This document shows positions 29,564-49,113 of a DNA stretch of 55,341 nucleotides, piece after piece. The first letter of the stretch is position 1, and every line of letters starts with the position of its first letter. A program made the position numbers and the translations under genes. This DNA is from Bacteroidales bacterium (GTDB lineage Bacteria > Bacteroidota > Bacteroidia > Bacteroidales > UBA932). The DNA is taken from NCBI GenBank assembly GCA_017453565.1, contig JAFTEQ010000043.1, forward strand, positions 1-55,341. The letters are read 5' to 3'. The notes beneath the pieces are model-generated. The model was not told where the DNA came from. It ran no database searches and worked only from the letters and a program-made list of their open reading frames with translations.

Positions 29564-29962
29564 CTAAGCGTAGATGACAGACTTGACTCTCTCGATAAAA
29601 GACTCAACTTTAGGAATATAAGGCTCCACGTCCTCCTTCGTCCAGTCAAGGAAATCATCATAATCCCCAGTGTGACGCATATTCTGAAGCCGGGCTAGCA
29701 AAATACCGTCCTCATTGGAAAGGATTCCCGTACGCACATAGTTCTGTCCAATCATGCCGATAGTTCCTTCATGAGTCTTTGCTGTATGACCGGCGCTAAT
29801 CAGCAAAGCCGAAGACACATAATACGTTGCGTAATACAATCTGTTTGCAGCCAAAGACCAATGGCCCAAAGAAGCGCAATCCCTGGCCTCTACCAAAGCG
29901 TCATCCGCTTTTTCAAGGCGATACACAACAATCGCCTTCCTCTCTTCATCCGTTAACGGCAT
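29564..29962 (-). CDS. HEPN-domain protein of a HEPN/MNT pair
   Basis: A 132-residue all-helical protein. The pattern AANRLYYATYYVSSALLISAG, followed by KTHEGTIGMIGQNYVRTGIL and RHTGDYDDF, is that of the UPF0332 HEPN family. In characterised HEPN/MNT modules the HEPN partner is the toxin, usually an RNase with an R-x4-6-H motif; that motif is not evident here, so nuclease activity is uncertain. The start codon overlaps the last 10 nt of the MNT gene, so the pair is coupled. GC content is visibly lower than in the neighbouring tex, which suggests acquisition by transfer. Confidence 0.82.
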   Translation of the reverse strand: MPLTDEERKAIVVYRLEKADDALVEARDCASLGHWSLAANRLYYATYYVSSALLISAGHTAKTHEGTIGMIGQNYVRTGILSNEDGILLARLQNMRHTGDYDDFLDWTKEDVEPYIPKVESFIERVKSVIYA

Positions 29963-30273
29963 AGGCTAACTCCTTCGGCTTGAACGTTCTTGTAGAAAGA
30001 GGTAATGCTGCGGCGATTCCAATCAGAGAAAGAATAAATCAGAGGATTAATCCGCTCTCCCACGGACCAGCCGTAGTTCACGAAGGGGTAGGCATACTTG
30101 TCGAAATCTGCGCCTGTAGCCCTCTCTCCGTTAATGAGAATCAGGACATCCCAGTCCGAATCCGATCGCGCATCACCCCTGGCACGGGAGCCGAAAAGCA
30201 GCGCTTCCGCCCCCGCTGGCAGCACGGTGGACGCAAGTTCCCTCATTCCCCGTATGATATCTTTCTGACTCAT
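29953..30273 (-). CDS. minimal nucleotidyltransferase (MNT) of a HEPN/MNT pair
   Basis: A 106-residue pol-beta-fold nucleotidyltransferase. The catalytic motif GS-x10-DxD is complete (FGSRARGDARSDSDWDVLI, near residue 30). MNT proteins act as antitoxins to HEPN proteins; in a studied system the MNT AMPylates the HEPN partner. ATG at 30273 is chosen because the frame further upstream has only a TTG inside the -7 box. The box TACCTTTG (30283-30290) is 9 nt from the ATG, so the leader is very short. It is first in the pair, with HEPN and then tex downstream in the same direction. Confidence 0.87.
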   Translation of the reverse strand: MSQKDIIRGMRELASTVLPAGAEALLFGSRARGDARSDSDWDVLILINGERATGADFDKYAYPFVNYGWSVGERINPLIYSFSDWNRRSITSFYKNVQAEGVSLCR

Positions 30274-30282
30274 GGTCAGAGA

Positions 30283-30290
30283 CAAAGGTA
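30283..30290 (-). promoter_or_regulatory. -7 box of the HEPN/MNT pair
   Basis: TACCTTTG on the minus strand, 9 nt upstream of the MNT ATG. Confidence 0.6.
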
Positions 30291-30401: not shown

Positions 30402-31367
30402 CTACGAGAAGTCTTCGGTGTTCAAAGTAACCGTGCCCAGGTAATTCAGTTTTGCGTTCGTGATGGTATACTTCTTACTCTCATCGCTGGTAACGAGGGT
30501 CACCGTCCTGGTGGCAGTGTGATCGGAGTCGTCGGTGAAGACAAAGGTGAGCGTAGTCTTTCCGCCAGCATCAACGGTATGCCTGCTGGCCATGTACACG
30601 GGGCCCGTAAGTTGGGCGCCACCGTTCTCGATGGTAATGGTCCCACCCTTACCGCCGACGGCATTTGAGAAATTAAGGTTGTCGGCCTTGAAATTGTAGA
30701 TGGGCATGGCCTTGCTGGCTTCGGGATCAGGTCCGACACAGAGACCATAACCTTTAGCAGCCGAATAAGTACCCGAATTCTCGTAATTGACCGTCACCGT
30801 AACCCGCTTTACGAACGCGGTGCCCGCTATATCGAAACGGGTAAGGGCGCTGCGAAGAGCCATGCCGTTGATGGTCAGACTGGCACCGTCATACGTGACA
30901 TCCCTGGTTGCAAACAGGCTATATTTGATGCCGGTACCGTCCTGAGTGGCAGGAATGTTGGCATAGATCATCTTAGTCGATGCACCAGTAACAAAATGAG
31001 TAGTACACGTAGCATCGCTATACACGCTGAACGCCGTATACTTAGCTTGGGTACTCGCCCCCGCCGTGCCGCTGAAACTGGCCGTTGCGCCGCCCGTGGC
31101 GGTCGTGAAGCAGTCCCATTCATTGATGGCTGCCTCGCCAAATGTATAATTGATAATTTGAATCTTGTCCCCGGCTTCCCAGGCAACCGTGTAGGGGCTG
31201 ACGCCCGTGAGTTCAACCGACGTCGCCGGATCCACGTCCACGACGGGCGCACCCACCGTAACTGTAATAGGCTTGCCCGCCACCGGGGCTTTCTCTTCCT
31301 TCGAGCAGGAAAGGGCCGCCGTCATCGCCGCTGCGGCGAGAACGGTCAAAAGGGCTGTCTTATTCAT
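30402..31367 (-). CDS. lipoprotein of duplicated module, copy A (fimbrillin-like)
   Basis: A 321-residue protein. The signal peptide MNKTALLTVLAAAAMTAALSC has its lipidated Cys at 21; the SKEE after it resembles the acidic surface-export signal of Bacteroidetes lipoproteins. The mature part is beta-rich with 'WEAGDKIQIINY' and 'FSGTAG' segments, which I associate with fimbrillin-like and related surface proteins; no enzyme motif is seen. The C-terminus YLGTVTLNTEDFS is shared with copy B. ATG at 31367 is chosen because copy B starts at the same residue and the ATG overlaps the small-protein stop by 8 nt (GATGAATAA); upstream ATGs in frame lie inside the small gene. A terminator follows at 30342-30376. 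Confidence 0.8.
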   Translation of the reverse strand: MNKTALLTVLAAAAMTAALSCSKEEKAPVAGKPITVTVGAPVVDVDPATSVELTGVSPYTVAWEAGDKIQIINYTFGEAAINEWDCFTTATGGATASFSGTAGASTQAKYTAFSVYSDATCTTHFVTGASTKMIYANIPATQDGTGIKYSLFATRDVTYDGASLTINGMALRSALTRFDIAGTAFVKRVTVTVNYENSGTYSAAKGYGLCVGPDPEASKAMPIYNFKADNLNFSNAVGGKGGTITIENGGAQLTGPVYMASRHTVDAGGKTTLTFVFTDDSDHTATRTVTLVTSDESKKYTITNAKLNYLGTVTLNTEDFS

Positions 31368-31521
31368 CGAAAGAAACATTTTCATGGAGATCGTTAACGG
31401 TGAGATTGGCAATGCCCGTACTCACGCAAAGCAGGCCTTCCGCACGGAAGGAAAACACGGACGCGTCGGGACGTTCATACCGAACGTCCTGACGGAGCGA
31501 AGAGATTGTTTTGTTTGTCAT
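31360..31521 (-). CDS. 53-residue small protein coupled to lipoprotein A
   Basis: Starts ATG 31521, ends TAA 31360-31362. The product is MTNKTISSLRQDVRYERPDA continuing with SVFSFRAEGLLCVSTGI and ending FDE. Its sister at 32448-32609 has the same length. Across residues 13-37 the two genes differ at six codons, all synonymous, which is strong evidence of translation and selection on the peptide. It has no signal peptide and no membrane segment. It lies 10 nt after the lipoprotein B stop and its own stop overlaps the lipoprotein A start, so its translation should feed the lipoprotein. Function unknown; similar short proteins ahead of surface lipoproteins are, from memory, frequent in Bacteroidetes. 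Confidence 0.75.
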   Translation of the reverse strand: MTNKTISSLRQDVRYERPDASVFSFRAEGLLCVSTGIANLTVNDLHENVSFDE

Positions 31522-31531
31522 CGTAAAAACA

Positions 31532-32455
31532 CTAACTGAAGTCGGAAGGCTTGAGGTTCACAGCGCCGAGGTAGTTCAGATAGCCTGTCTTGATACTAAT
31601 TGCATCACCCCCGTTAAAAAGGGTAACCGTTCTGGTGCAAGTCTGGGCGGAGCTGTTGGTAAAGACAAACGTGAGGGTAACAGTCCCGTATTTGGCATCT
31701 GACAACGTGTGCCGGCTCACAAAATACACGGGGCCGGAAAGCAAAGCACCGCCGTTGCTGATGGTAATGGTCTTGCCCGGGCCGCCGGAGCCGGCGAACT
31801 TCTTGCCATTCAAGAAATTGCAGACAACGTCATATGCGTCGCCGCTGCTGCACAGGCCAATGGAAGAACCGGCACTTTCCGAATAAGCAACGGTAACGGT
31901 AACTTGACGCACATCGGCCGCCGCCGGAAGGTCGAAACGGGTAAGAGCACTCCTGAGATGCATTGTGGGAATGGAAAGGGTTGCCCCGTCGTACGAAGCA
32001 TATTCGGCAAAACAACAATACTTTGCGCCTGTTCCGTCCTGATTGGCGGGAATATTATACTTGAAACTGTCAGCTGTCGATGAACAAGAAAAAGTATAAC
32101 CGTTATATGCGCGCGCAGCAAGGTATTTTGTGTAGGAGTTGGTTCCGGCCGTGCCCGTAAAACTGGCGGTGGCGCCGCCCTCTGTGGTCGTAAAGTCGCC
32201 CCAGTCGTTATAACCGGCCGTGCCATCCTGATAATTGATAACATGGATCTTGTCGCCGGCCTCCCAAGCAAGCGTATAGGCAGGATCTATACTGGTAAGC
32301 GCCACGGATGTGGCCGGATCCACGTCCACAACAGGCGCACCCACCTCAACGGTAATGGGCTTGCCCGCCACCGGGGCTTTCTCTTCCTTCGAGCAGGAAA
32401 GGGCTGCCGTCATCGCCGCTGCGGCGAGAACGGTGAAAAGGACTGTCTTATTCAT
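31532..32455 (-). CDS. lipoprotein of duplicated module, copy B (fimbrillin-like)
   Basis: A 307-residue protein with almost the same signal peptide as copy A (MNKTVLFTVLAAAAMTAALSC, lipidated Cys at 21, then SKEEKAPVAGKPITV). The first ~40 residues are nearly identical to copy A, the middle is much more divergent, and the end (YLGAVNLKPSDFS) is again similar. The mature part is beta-rich with WEAGDKIHVINY and FTGTAG. The ATG at 32455 overlaps the stop of its small gene by 8 nt. The next small gene starts 10 nt after this stop, so both modules form one operon from the promoter at 32643-32650. No enzymatic motif is seen. Confidence 0.8.
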   Translation of the reverse strand: MNKTVLFTVLAAAAMTAALSCSKEEKAPVAGKPITVEVGAPVVDVDPATSVALTSIDPAYTLAWEAGDKIHVINYQDGTAGYNDWGDFTTTEGGATASFTGTAGTNSYTKYLAARAYNGYTFSCSSTADSFKYNIPANQDGTGAKYCCFAEYASYDGATLSIPTMHLRSALTRFDLPAAADVRQVTVTVAYSESAGSSIGLCSSGDAYDVVCNFLNGKKFAGSGGPGKTITISNGGALLSGPVYFVSRHTLSDAKYGTVTLTFVFTNSSAQTCTRTVTLFNGGDAISIKTGYLNYLGAVNLKPSDFS

Positions 32456-32609
32456 CGAAGGTAACATTTTCAGAGAGATCGTTAACGCTGAGATTGTTGA
32501 TGCCCGTGCTCACGCAAAGCAGGCCTTCCGCACGGAAGGAGAACACGGACGCATCGGGGCGTTCATACCGGACACCCGGACGGAGCGAAGGATTTGTTTT
32601 TCTGGTCAT
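32448..32609 (-). CDS. 53-residue small protein coupled to lipoprotein B
   Basis: Starts ATG 32609, ends TAA 32448-32450. It begins MTRKTNPSLRPGVRYERPDA, has the same SVFSFRAEGLLCVSTGI core as the copy at 31360-31521, and ends FDE. Substitutions between the copies fall in the first 12 residues and after residue 37; the core differs only at synonymous sites. It is the first gene of the duplicated operon, about 28 nt downstream of the predicted transcription start. The stop overlaps the lipoprotein ATG in the string GATGAATAA. Soluble and cytosolic by sequence; function unknown. Confidence 0.75.
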   Translation of the reverse strand: MTRKTNPSLRPGVRYERPDASVFSFRAEGLLCVSTGINNLSVNDLSENVTFDE

Positions 32610-32642: not shown

Positions 32643-32650
32643 CAAATATA
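32643..32650 (-). promoter_or_regulatory. -7 box of the small-protein/lipoprotein operon
   Basis: TATATTTG on the minus strand, just beyond the ClC stop codon and 33 nt upstream of the small-protein ATG. No clear TTTG -33. Confidence 0.6.
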
Positions 32651-46865: not shown

Positions 46866-48950
46866 TCAATTCTTATAGAAAGTTATACCTTTCAGGTCAA
46901 GTCCGTAGTTAGAATTCTTGCTATTAGAACAAGTGAAAACAATTTTGTAGCGATAGCCATCGCAATCTGTGCTGCCAGATTTTGTAAACGTCAGTGTTTT
47001 TGCCGTACCAACAGCGAATGTGAATGTATCGGATGTAGTGAACGTCACACCGTTTGTACCGGCAGTTAAATCATCCGCAGTAGGATACGCCACAACTGTA
47101 ATTGAGCTAACTGTCAAATTAGCGTTAGAGACTCCATTTGTAGAGATTACGATCTCATCGCAATCACCGTCCATGTCAGATTTAGCATAAATGACGCGCT
47201 CGGCATTTGTTAGCGACCTACCTCCAATTCTCCAATAACCATCAAAATTCTGATTGCCGGGAGCATTCCAAGTCATCCCGTCAATCACAACATCATAAGT
47301 ATTCGCATAGGCAGTATTGGAAGCTTGTGCAGGCGTTAATGCATAAACTTCTGTCTTTGAGGACCATTGGGCATAGAGCGTCAAATCGCCTGTAGCCACG
47401 GCAGAAGCACCGGCAGCATAAGAAGACCCGGATCCGTTTGCTGCAGTATTCCATCCTGTAAAGGTACAATCTGTTTTTACGAGGGTTCCGGCTGCCGCTA
47501 CCGTGAAGGGGCCGGAAGTGACAACAGATGCCGGAGCCGTTCCGCCGGTGTTACCATTTCCATTGTATGTAACAGTATAGGGGGTAATCAGGGACGGGCC
47601 GCTTCCGGAACCTTCGAGTTTGTAAAGGGCCTGAAGATCTGATACAGACGAACCAGATGCGTAACAGGAGAAGCGGGAACTGGGGCCATTATATCGTATG
47701 TGATTGTTGTTGGAACTGTCCATGGCGATGAGCGTCATTTCGCCCGTCTCCGCATTTACAATAGTGGGAGTCCAATAACCATTTACATCGTTGGTAGTCT
47801 GGATGCCCAAGCAATTCCCGCCGCCTTTAGCATAGAGATAACCGTTGGTTCCGTTCAGGGCAATCGTATTGGTTGCGCCGCCGGCTTCGATGGTGAAGAC
47901 ATCCACAGTAGCAGCAGGGTTGGTAATCTTACTGTAGTCAAGGCTCTTGGCCTGAGATACTGTGCTGATGAAGTTGGATTCGGTGGTCCCGATACCCGCA
48001 GCATAGGCGGTAGCTCCAACCGCGGCAATAATCACTTTGGAGCCTGCAGTAAGCTCGGAATAGGAAGTGACCAGGTTGTAAACCTTGTCTGACGGAGGCG
48101 TGATGCCGGCGAAATCTACGTCAAACGTAGCCACGTGGCCGGCGGCAAGAGCGGCAGGAGTGTTAATGACCTTAGTGTACACCTTGGAATTCGTGGTGGT
48201 CACGGAAATGGTCAGTTCTGTGCCGGATGCCATGGGAGCGCATGCAAACCAGATGTTTGAAGGAGAATCCGTCAGAATCGTGATGGCGTTTGTGGCTCCG
48301 TTCTCTTCCAATGTCCCCACCTTTGCTCCTCCTACGTAGTAATAGTATCTGTATGCTATGTTTGCATTGGCGGAGACAAGGACAGAAGCCACCTCGTCGC
48401 CGACAGCCAGGTCAAGGTTTGTGATGGACATCTTGACATAAGCCGTGATGTGAGAGAAATCAAGATCGACGGAAGACGGGAAGGTCCCGACGGTAGAAGA
48501 GGTTGCCGCCAGTATCATGGCGCTTTCATCCGGGCCTGTAGCCGTTGGCGTCTGTGTGGTGGGAATCTGGAGGTTCCAGCTGAAATAGGTGGAATTCACG
48601 CCACTTACCACGGCGCTTGCAGGACTTACGGCATAGAACGTATAGGAGCCGCTCCCATCGTCTGAGAATGTTGCATCGAAAGAAGCCTGCGTATCGCTGA
48701 TTTTTGTGACAGTAGCGGCCTGACCTGTAGAATAATTCTGAGCAATCTTGACCTGGCTGTCATTAGCGGTCCAAATGGTAGGATACTTTCCGGCGGTCAG
48801 CGTCCCGAAAGTTGTCCTGGTATCAGGAGAAAGAGCATTGAAGGTCACGGTCTGCGCTTCGCCCACTGGAGCGATCTCCGCTTTCTGGCAGGAAGCAAAC
48901 GCAATCACAGCTGCTGCGATTGCGAAAACAGATTTGATCATCTTTTTCAT
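46866..48950 (-). CDS. multidomain surface lipoprotein (fimbrillin-like, InlB-like repeat)
   Basis: A 694-residue protein ending KGITFYKN-TGA. The signal peptide MKKMIKSVFAIAAAVIAFASC has its lipidated Cys at 21. Residues ~25-285 are fimbrillin-like (TFNALSPDTRTTFGTL; PTIWTANDSQVKI; FTFYAVSP-type segments). About 290-455 is a second beta domain (NLVTSYSELTAGSKVIIAA; NGYLYAKGGGNCLGI), and about 457-526 is an InlB/Listeria-Bacteroides repeat (VTYNGNGNTGGTAP; CTFTGWNT; TLYAQW). The rest, a beta-sandwich, may be carbohydrate-binding. The next codons after the TGA stay in frame with a nuclease domain. ATG at 48950 was chosen for the signal peptide; it is 13 nt after the small-protein stop. GC is clearly below the window average. 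Confidence 0.82.
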   Translation of the reverse strand: MKKMIKSVFAIAAAVIAFASCQKAEIAPVGEAQTVTFNALSPDTRTTFGTLTAGKYPTIWTANDSQVKIAQNYSTGQAATVTKISDTQASFDATFSDDGSGSYTFYAVSPASAVVSGVNSTYFSWNLQIPTTQTPTATGPDESAMILAATSSTVGTFPSSVDLDFSHITAYVKMSITNLDLAVGDEVASVLVSANANIAYRYYYYVGGAKVGTLEENGATNAITILTDSPSNIWFACAPMASGTELTISVTTTNSKVYTKVINTPAALAAGHVATFDVDFAGITPPSDKVYNLVTSYSELTAGSKVIIAAVGATAYAAGIGTTESNFISTVSQAKSLDYSKITNPAATVDVFTIEAGGATNTIALNGTNGYLYAKGGGNCLGIQTTNDVNGYWTPTIVNAETGEMTLIAMDSSNNNHIRYNGPSSRFSCYASGSSVSDLQALYKLEGSGSGPSLITPYTVTYNGNGNTGGTAPASVVTSGPFTVAAAGTLVKTDCTFTGWNTAANGSGSSYAAGASAVATGDLTLYAQWSSKTEVYALTPAQASNTAYANTYDVVIDGMTWNAPGNQNFDGYWRIGGRSLTNAERVIYAKSDMDGDCDEIVISTNGVSNANLTVSSITVVAYPTADDLTAGTNGVTFTTSDTFTFAVGTAKTLTFTKSGSTDCDGYRYKIVFTCSNSKNSNYGLDLKGITFYKN

Positions 48951-48963
48951 AAGGCGCAACTGT

Positions 48964-49113
48964 TTACAGGGTAAGCCAATCATCTTCTGTGGCATCGGCG
49001 ATCCCGCTTCCGCGGTAACTGGTGCAGAGGACCTCCTGAGGACGAAGGTCCACTACGGTGCACAAAGGAGCTGCATAGCCCTCCAGCGCACTAAAACTAG
49101 GTTTTTTAATCAT
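48964..49113 (-). CDS. 49-residue small protein ahead of the surface lipoprotein
   Basis: Starts ATG 49113, ends TAA 48964-48966. It begins MIKKPSFSALEGYAAPLCTV, then VDLRPQEVLCTSYRGSGI, and ends DDWLTL. It has the same position (just before a lipoprotein start) and a similar core (LR..E.LC.S....I) as the 53-residue proteins at 31.4 and 32.5 kb, but the match is too loose to prove homology. It has no signal peptide and no membrane segment. It is first in the transcript from the box at 49155-49162 and 13 nt ahead of the lipoprotein ATG. Function unknown. Confidence 0.6.
   Translation of the reverse strand: MIKKPSFSALEGYAAPLCTVVDLRPQEVLCTSYRGSGIADATEDDWLTL

Follow-up and report, generated by a model that had tools for sequence, protein, structure and literature searches.

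What is the role of the 53-residue proteins that are encoded twice, each time directly before a lipoprotein gene, on contig JAFTEQ010000043.1 of a Bacteroidales bacterium (assembly GCA_017453565.1; the whole contig stretch of 55,341 nucleotides (nt) was analysed and is referred to here as the window)? Comparison with related genomes leads us to conclude that these small proteins are very probably precursors of a ribosomally made, enzyme-modified peptide (RiPP) similar to the linear polyphosphorylated peptides (LPP), that such precursors are encoded at many dispersed sites and that they are processed in trans by a single gene cluster. The window most likely contains two precursor genes of such an LPP-like system, each tied to a lipoprotein. 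On the basis of sequence comparison, the conserved part of the small protein is a putative RiPP-type leader and its variable tail the predicted core. What is new is that the precursors are numerous and scattered, that each of them has a lipoprotein partner, and that they occur outside the Bacillota.

Both modules are on the minus strand. Small gene 1 (32448..32609; 53 codons) encodes a head, a leader with Y15, P18, C32 and S34, and a variable acidic tail, and its end is overlapped by 8 nt by the gene for lipoprotein 1 (31532..32455; 307 residues, no Pfam family), which has its ATG at 32455. Small gene 2 (31360..31521; 53 residues) begins 10 nt past the stop of lipoprotein 1 and precedes the gene for lipoprotein 2 (30402..31367; 321 residues, ATG at 31367), for which only sub-threshold Pfam matches were found. 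Both small genes match the family profile described below, both end in ...GATGAATAA, and in both cases the lipoprotein ATG overlaps the last 8 nt. Codon-by-codon comparison bears out the duplicated two-gene module of the original prediction: the small genes differ at six positions in codons 13-37, all of them synonymous, and the nine amino-acid changes between the two proteins all fall in residues 1-12 and 38-53. Between about codon 13 and ~32300, a span that takes in the signal peptide, the modules are 80-100% identical in DNA (30-nt blocks); beyond this point the values are mostly 45-75%, with indels (range 23-83%). The mature domains had been said to diverge strongly; identity does fall past ~32300, and this wording is somewhat overstated because the lipoproteins remain 60% identical over their length. 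The reported agreement of their C-termini is real (LNYLG.V.L...DFS). The arrangement is not a matter of chance, because it recurs for all 14 small genes of the genome.

The small proteins belong to a large family. One small protein used as the query found two weak further places in its own genome, and matches in 14 of the 61 genomes of the genus. A profile built from 15 small proteins (A1) recovered 13 members in the same genome and members in 43 of the 61 genomes, with up to 25 in one, and the later profile A2 of 69 members brought the count for the genome to 14. From 79 rows run, 73 distinct proteins were kept (L066 retained; L051, L052, L053, L067, L068 and repeats removed), and 69 of these entered A2 (L060, L077, L083 and L093 omitted), some trimmed to a later Met and with the first residue written as M. 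A search across the phylum gave a match in 4 of 296 genomes, including the genome of the window; of the other three, two contain internal stops and the third is unconvincing. No match above chance was identified in Pfam, NCBIfam or PDB, the one PDB match of the profile (E 1.9) being of chance level.

The shared layout consists of Y-x-x-P, a conserved stretch ending in [C/A]-x-S, and a variable acidic tail (25% D+E vs 2.6% K+R in 73 proteins). Each of 85 distinct leader 20-mers of the family (chosen for Y..P) has Ser at position 20, and in 84 of them position 18 is C or A (Cys 82, Ala 2, Met 1). In 14 non-independent close pairs, dN/dS is ~0.18 for the leader, 0.40 for the tail and 0.60 for the head. 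The small gene is thus translated, with its middle the most constrained part, in agreement with the earlier claim of translation and selection. The phrase "conserved leader with exchangeable passenger domains", which had been applied to the module, holds in another sense, that of a RiPP-type leader followed by a variable predicted core tail. A second tandem pair is found on another contig of the same genome (L134, contig C36). There, the small proteins are identical over 32 residues from the Tyr to the end, the lipoproteins have a common N-terminal signal peptide and differ in their mature parts, and a third lipoprotein-like open reading frame (ORF) follows downstream with no small gene found before it. 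Elsewhere, a precursor-like start is in frame with a lipoprotein (L067/L181, genome G571; the ORF of L181 has 369 residues), and in L114 a precursor start runs into unrelated sequence; each may be a natural fusion or an assembly effect.

All 14 small genes of the genome are just upstream of a lipoprotein gene (12 by automatic call, L056 by eye and the fourteenth added later). Across 73 loci of the genus and family (without L051-L053 and L066-L068, and with the identical L030 and L031 both included), the next gene encodes a lipoprotein in 69 (65 automatic; L056, L071, L087 and L090 by eye). Relatives thus keep the pairing, which withstands, in the loci followed, the check proposed with the original prediction. 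For comparison, 35 of 346 long ORFs (10%) were called lipoproteins in 40 other loci. As for the four exceptions, L078 precedes a protein with a Sec signal, the lipoprotein gene of L084 is 391 nt further on, and none was recognised at L088 and L091. Gaps between the two genes, determined for 65 loci, are most commonly 12-15 nt, and 57 are within 30 nt either way. Titled records supplied 23 loci, five of them contigs already sampled, and 22 showed the arrangement (two by eye); all are uncultured or metagenome-assembled by title and many ruminant-derived. Of 18 intact members from genomes drawn across the order (three of the same genus), 13 precede a lipoprotein and L181 runs in frame into one; of the other four, one lies at the end of its contig and for three no lipoprotein was recognised. 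Pairing in the reverse direction stands in part: all six homologues of the window lipoprotein in the genome (E < 1e-3) have a small gene, and for some paralogous lipoproteins beside the modules none was found.

The paired lipoproteins range from ~290 to >1000 residues. One of them (L135, on contig C70 of the genome) carries BspA-type leucine-rich repeats (PF13306, 2e-135), and thus the partner proteins differ in architecture. At L137 (contig C20), three tandem, similar-looking and apparently secreted proteins are encoded directly upstream of a small gene-lipoprotein pair. A fimbrillin identity was considered and rejected: neither the two window lipoproteins nor 10 relatives match Mfa_like_1 (PF13149), no PDB match was found, and no small gene of this kind was detected next to the four PF13149 matches of the genome (two loci). 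Similarity of the predicted cores tracks that of the lipoproteins (Mantel r 0.10, p 0.001; 73 of 86 kept after removal of similar lipoproteins), a small correlation to which common descent of the pair can contribute. The corresponding values are r 0.015 (p 0.37) for leader and lipoprotein, and r 0.065 (p 0.022) for leader and core. The co-variation of core and lipoprotein weakly suggests that the lipoprotein may be a dedicated partner of the core peptide.

Which enzymes could act on such precursors? Y-x-x-P is reminiscent of the leader motifs that RREs recognise, and PqqD matches were identified in 52 of the 61 genus genomes. Around 7 of 10 PqqD stretches inspected there is a conserved set of genes for an HprK-like kinase, an archaeal-type signal-peptidase-like protein (SpI), a discrete RRE (PqqD fold) and an ABC exporter, sometimes with an NTP transferase (PF14907), and the same set was found in loci later taken for SpI. 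The other three stretches are a lasso-type cluster, a radical SAM protein and an unclear case. In the genome of the window the order on contig C80 is kinase, SpI-like peptidase, RRE and ABC exporter, and no NTP transferase was seen there. Of 59 loci selected around an SpI or PqqD gene, 51 encode kinase, SpI and RRE side by side in one set. The 59 loci exclude L149, L151 and L152 (PqqD without SpI) and L232 and L235 (fetched for their precursors), and nine weaker SpI loci from the family and eight from the order were left out. All 53 cluster RREs have Asn35 and Asp73, which align with an Asn and an Asp of the lasso RRE TfuB1, the only plausible PDB relative (E 0.013). Ser33, His71 and Asp86 are present in 59 of 59 SpI proteins, for which the best PDB match is SEC11A (E 0.005) and the best NCBIfam match sigpep_I_arch, below its curated cut-off (1e-4 for the C80 protein, 6.5e-6 for that of L227). 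The kinases have a nearly invariant S-G-T-G-K-S-T loop (P-loop; 53 kinases) and match HprK_rel_A, also below the curated cut-off (2e-4 for C80, 3e-7 for L229); in PDB the kinase profile found unrelated kinases only.

The same types of protein make up the LPP system (Popov et al., 2026, published May 2026; PMC13381572), for which an RRE, SpI, HprK-like kinase, NTP transferase and MsbA-like ABC exporter are reported. In the sections of that paper drawn on here, LPP are described as restricted to Bacillota, one to three precursors are located within each cluster, the precursor motif is YxxPxVLxHQxIxFETxxS, and YxxP is held by N33 and D70 of LppB. The terms 'bacteroid', 'prevotella' and 'lipoprotein' are absent from its main text. 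The Bacteroidales loci share with LPP the discrete RRE, the archaeal-type SpI and the lack of any macrolactam synthetase seen; they also have a putative HprK-like kinase and, in part of the loci, matches to the NTP transferase (18 of 59 loci) and the ABC exporter (36 of 59 loci). Precursors in both have Y-x-x-P, a conserved N-terminal part and a variable C-terminus, and in both RREs the YxxP-holding positions are occupied by Asn and Asp (N35/D73 being equated with N33/D70 of LppB by spacing, not by alignment to LppB). The Ser is 18 residues after the Tyr in LPP and 19 in the Bacteroidales precursors, and LPP are cut after Thr, whereas the cut here is predicted after Cys/Ala. Unlike the in-cluster LPP precursors, those of Bacteroidales are dispersed, up to 25 per genome, and nearly all beside a lipoprotein gene. 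The Bacteroidales system would work like LPP; we do not claim formal LPP membership for it, since the LPP precursor motif is not kept past YxxP.

Other RiPP types resemble the system less closely. Paeninodin-like and other lasso peptides also have a discrete RRE with a YxxP/WxxP leader, an HprK-like kinase and an NTP transferase (PMC13381572, in the sections drawn on). Unlike lasso systems, SpI is present here and no asparagine-synthetase-like cyclase was found in the cluster; no search was aimed at the B2 cysteine peptidase. A lasso identity was rejected, with homologues of the two asparagine-synthetase-like proteins of L149 in 0 of 59 cluster loci and matches to lasso_cyano (E 0.074) and DUF5972 (E 0.04) in NCBIfam/Pfam, from one of 69 members each, at chance level. 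L149 itself (genome G013) encodes those two proteins, an Hpr-kinase-like protein, PqqD and a small ORF with W-x-x-P, and is probably a lasso cluster in the same genus. The PqqD match of the RRE is shared with PQQ/PqqD systems; unlike in those, the radical SAM/PqqD-domain protein that L152 encodes has no homologue in any of the 59 loci. That protein, radical SAM/SPASM with a PqqD domain, is a separate RiPP-type enzyme in a genome with 25 small genes (G032). Graspetides and other RiPPs of Bacteroidales likewise involve Bacteroidota precursors, with lipoproteins near graspetide clusters, and, unlike the family described here, use ATP-grasp/SPASM enzymes and GG motifs, according to the portions consulted of PMC8939145 and PMC10352776. 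The small-protein family is not described in the portions consulted of these two or of PMC12710340, PMC7533575 and PMC13376575. Among the literature matches listed, from a search with most subscription journals and preprints outside its coverage, no title or start of an abstract concerned this family in Bacteroidota.

The small genes are linked to the enzyme cluster by co-occurrence and by synteny. In genomes drawn from the family, SpI was detected in 22 of 24 with small genes vs 27 of 75 without (p 1e-6), or, counted by genus, 7 of 7 vs 5 of 17 (p 0.002). For the order, the counts are 10 of 12 vs 13 of 235 (p 4e-10), and 8 of 10 vs 13 of 233 (p 3e-8) when the window's own family is removed. 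Neither draw was selected for an association of small genes with SpI. In L227, L228 and L229, genes for precursor, lipoprotein, kinase, SpI, RRE, in some cases NTP transferase, and ABC exporter are contiguous on one strand; in L230 the order is precursor, kinase, SpI, RRE and NTP transferase, with no lipoprotein between. These four loci were fetched because the linkage was already visible in the tables. Profile A1 recovered the precursors at L227 (= L084) and L228 (= L096), and includes neither of the two. Among 40 loci fetched only for SpI, seven contain a precursor-like ORF (L245, L252, L253, L255, L265, L270 and L274; L245 and L265 are weaker, and L252 and L253 near relatives); after base-shuffling, the figure was 1 of 59 loci. 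The cut of this count leaves out a further precursor-like ORF, that of L238 (E 0.006). In 12 precursors of cluster-type loci (seven from other families and five from the same family), position 18 is occupied by Ala eight times, by Met twice and by Leu and Cys once each (ungapped).

Several points weigh against an LPP-like reading. The sampled genomes are related, and thus the co-occurrence p-values overstate independence; one of the positives in the order, G408, is itself represented by a row in the profile used, and had also been found with the earlier profile. Small genes without a detected SpI are present in G631 and G646 (family) and in G503 (order), and G488, counted as a positive, has a broken small-gene match with two stops and no detected SpI. 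Conversely, SpI occurs without detected small genes in the 27 of 75 family and 13 of 235 order genomes given above. PqqD does not discriminate within the genus, where 39 of 52 PqqD-positive and 4 of 9 PqqD-negative genomes have small genes. In the genus of the window, 14 of 15 cluster loci have no precursor-like ORF, and in the exception (L265) the ORF is 5.5 kb away on the opposite strand; the link between precursor and cluster in this genus would therefore be in trans. At the motif level, HQxIxFET of LPP is not conserved and is replaced by E-G-V-I-C-x-S or E-x-G-F-A-x-S, with the Ser at 20 rather than 19, and Ser is at position 20 in only 8 of the 12 precursors typed from cluster-type loci (ungapped count). 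As for the enzymes, the exporter and NTP transferase were matched in 36 and 18 of 59 loci (single-sequence queries), the PDB E-values of RRE and SpI are weak, and neither the kinase nor SpI reaches a curated cut-off. Two residues are candidates for the third catalytic position of SpI: Asp86, which is invariant, and Asp99, which is Asp in 38 of 59. The L227 kinase has no HprK_rel_A match, and the Pfam match common to seven of seven kinases is PEPCK_ATP (best 8e-5), with Hpr_kinase_C in two of seven (best 0.16).

How might such a system operate? Precursor and lipoprotein would be made from one mRNA, possibly with translational coupling, given the overlapping or closely spaced stop and start codons. 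The discrete RRE would bind the leader through Y-x-x-P...E-G, as the motif and the invariant Asn35 and Asp73 of the RRE suggest. By analogy with Ser3 of LppA, the HprK-like kinase would add phosphate to the conserved Ser, the second residue past the predicted cut. For the SpI-like peptidase, the predicted cut is C-terminal to Cys/Ala, at V-I-C|x-S or G-F-A|x-S. This site fits the -3,-1 rule of signal peptidases, and the Cys/Ala exchange at position 18 is compatible with a signal-peptidase -1 site. In loci with an NTP transferase, this enzyme could make an addition to the phosphate; transport of the acidic core to the periplasm would fall to the ABC exporter. The co-encoded lipoprotein, exported to the envelope, would be the dedicated partner of the core peptide as a receptor, carrier or attachment site. 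More tentatively, the whole may be a trans-acting peptide label system. One set of RRE, kinase, peptidase and exporter would then make phosphate-bearing peptides from a dozen or more dispersed precursors. Each peptide would be matched to the surface lipoprotein translated along with its precursor and be bound or attached to it, giving diverged surface proteins a modified peptide that itself diversifies.

The best surviving alternative accepts that the small proteins are substrates of a C80-type cluster and assigns a different role to the products, as signals or toxins for which the lipoprotein provides immunity or a receptor rather than a partner in display. We regard this as a possible but not the favoured outcome. 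A precursor and a paired surface protein in many diverged copies resemble a peptide with its own receptor or immunity protein, and the exporter is present in 36 of 59 loci, but the size spread of the lipoproteins and the BspA-type repeats in one of them are unlike usual immunity proteins. It is much harder to see the small ORF as a regulatory leader that sets lipoprotein expression by coupling or nascent-chain arrest, its peptide having no other role. The 8-nt overlap in the window, the short gaps elsewhere (most commonly 12-15 nt) and the almost constant position upstream of a lipoprotein would suit it; against it stand conservation at the protein level (leader dN/dS ~0.18) with a nearly fixed spacing of Y, P, C and S, co-occurrence and synteny with the RRE/SpI/kinase/exporter set, and loci beside which no lipoprotein was recognised (L088, L091, L182, L192 and L196). 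Least probable of all is a dedicated chaperone or secretion pilot for the lipoprotein, which would account for the genetic pairing and the core-lipoprotein co-variation but not for a conserved leader that does not co-vary with the lipoprotein, for an RRE/peptidase/kinase cluster that a pilot does not need, or for a Cys/Ala exchange at one position, which fits a peptidase site. A helper function in translation, secretion or assembly, as first proposed, is thus not supported, and the evidence points instead to a RiPP precursor with a leader read in trans.

Also present in the window is a third precursor gene (48964..49113, minus strand; 49 residues, beginning MIKKPSFSALEGYAAPLCTVVDLRPQEVLCTS), identified by a profile match. 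A lipoprotein gene is located 13 nt downstream of it (46866..48950, minus strand), its start chosen next to the lipobox. Upstream of small gene 1, a weak candidate -7 promoter element read by eye, TATATTTG (32643..32650, minus strand), is separated by 33 nt from the ATG, and fits the Bacteroides -7 consensus, TAnnTTTG. At 29564-30285 on the minus strand, a HEPN gene (PF05168, 3e-15) overlaps a small nucleotidyltransferase gene (PF01909, 4e-8), and the two resemble a HEPN/MNT toxin-antitoxin pair.

If the small proteins are LPP-like precursors, a candidate function is available for an unannotated family that, in one genus of Bacteroidales, reaches 25 copies in a genome, and RiPP logic reported only for Bacillota would extend to another phylum. 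The layout, with central enzymes and scattered precursors that each have a lipoprotein partner, would escape mining for compact clusters. The finding would tie RiPP chemistry to the envelope lipoproteins of Bacteroidales, and would represent a new way for these bacteria to equip their surface proteins.

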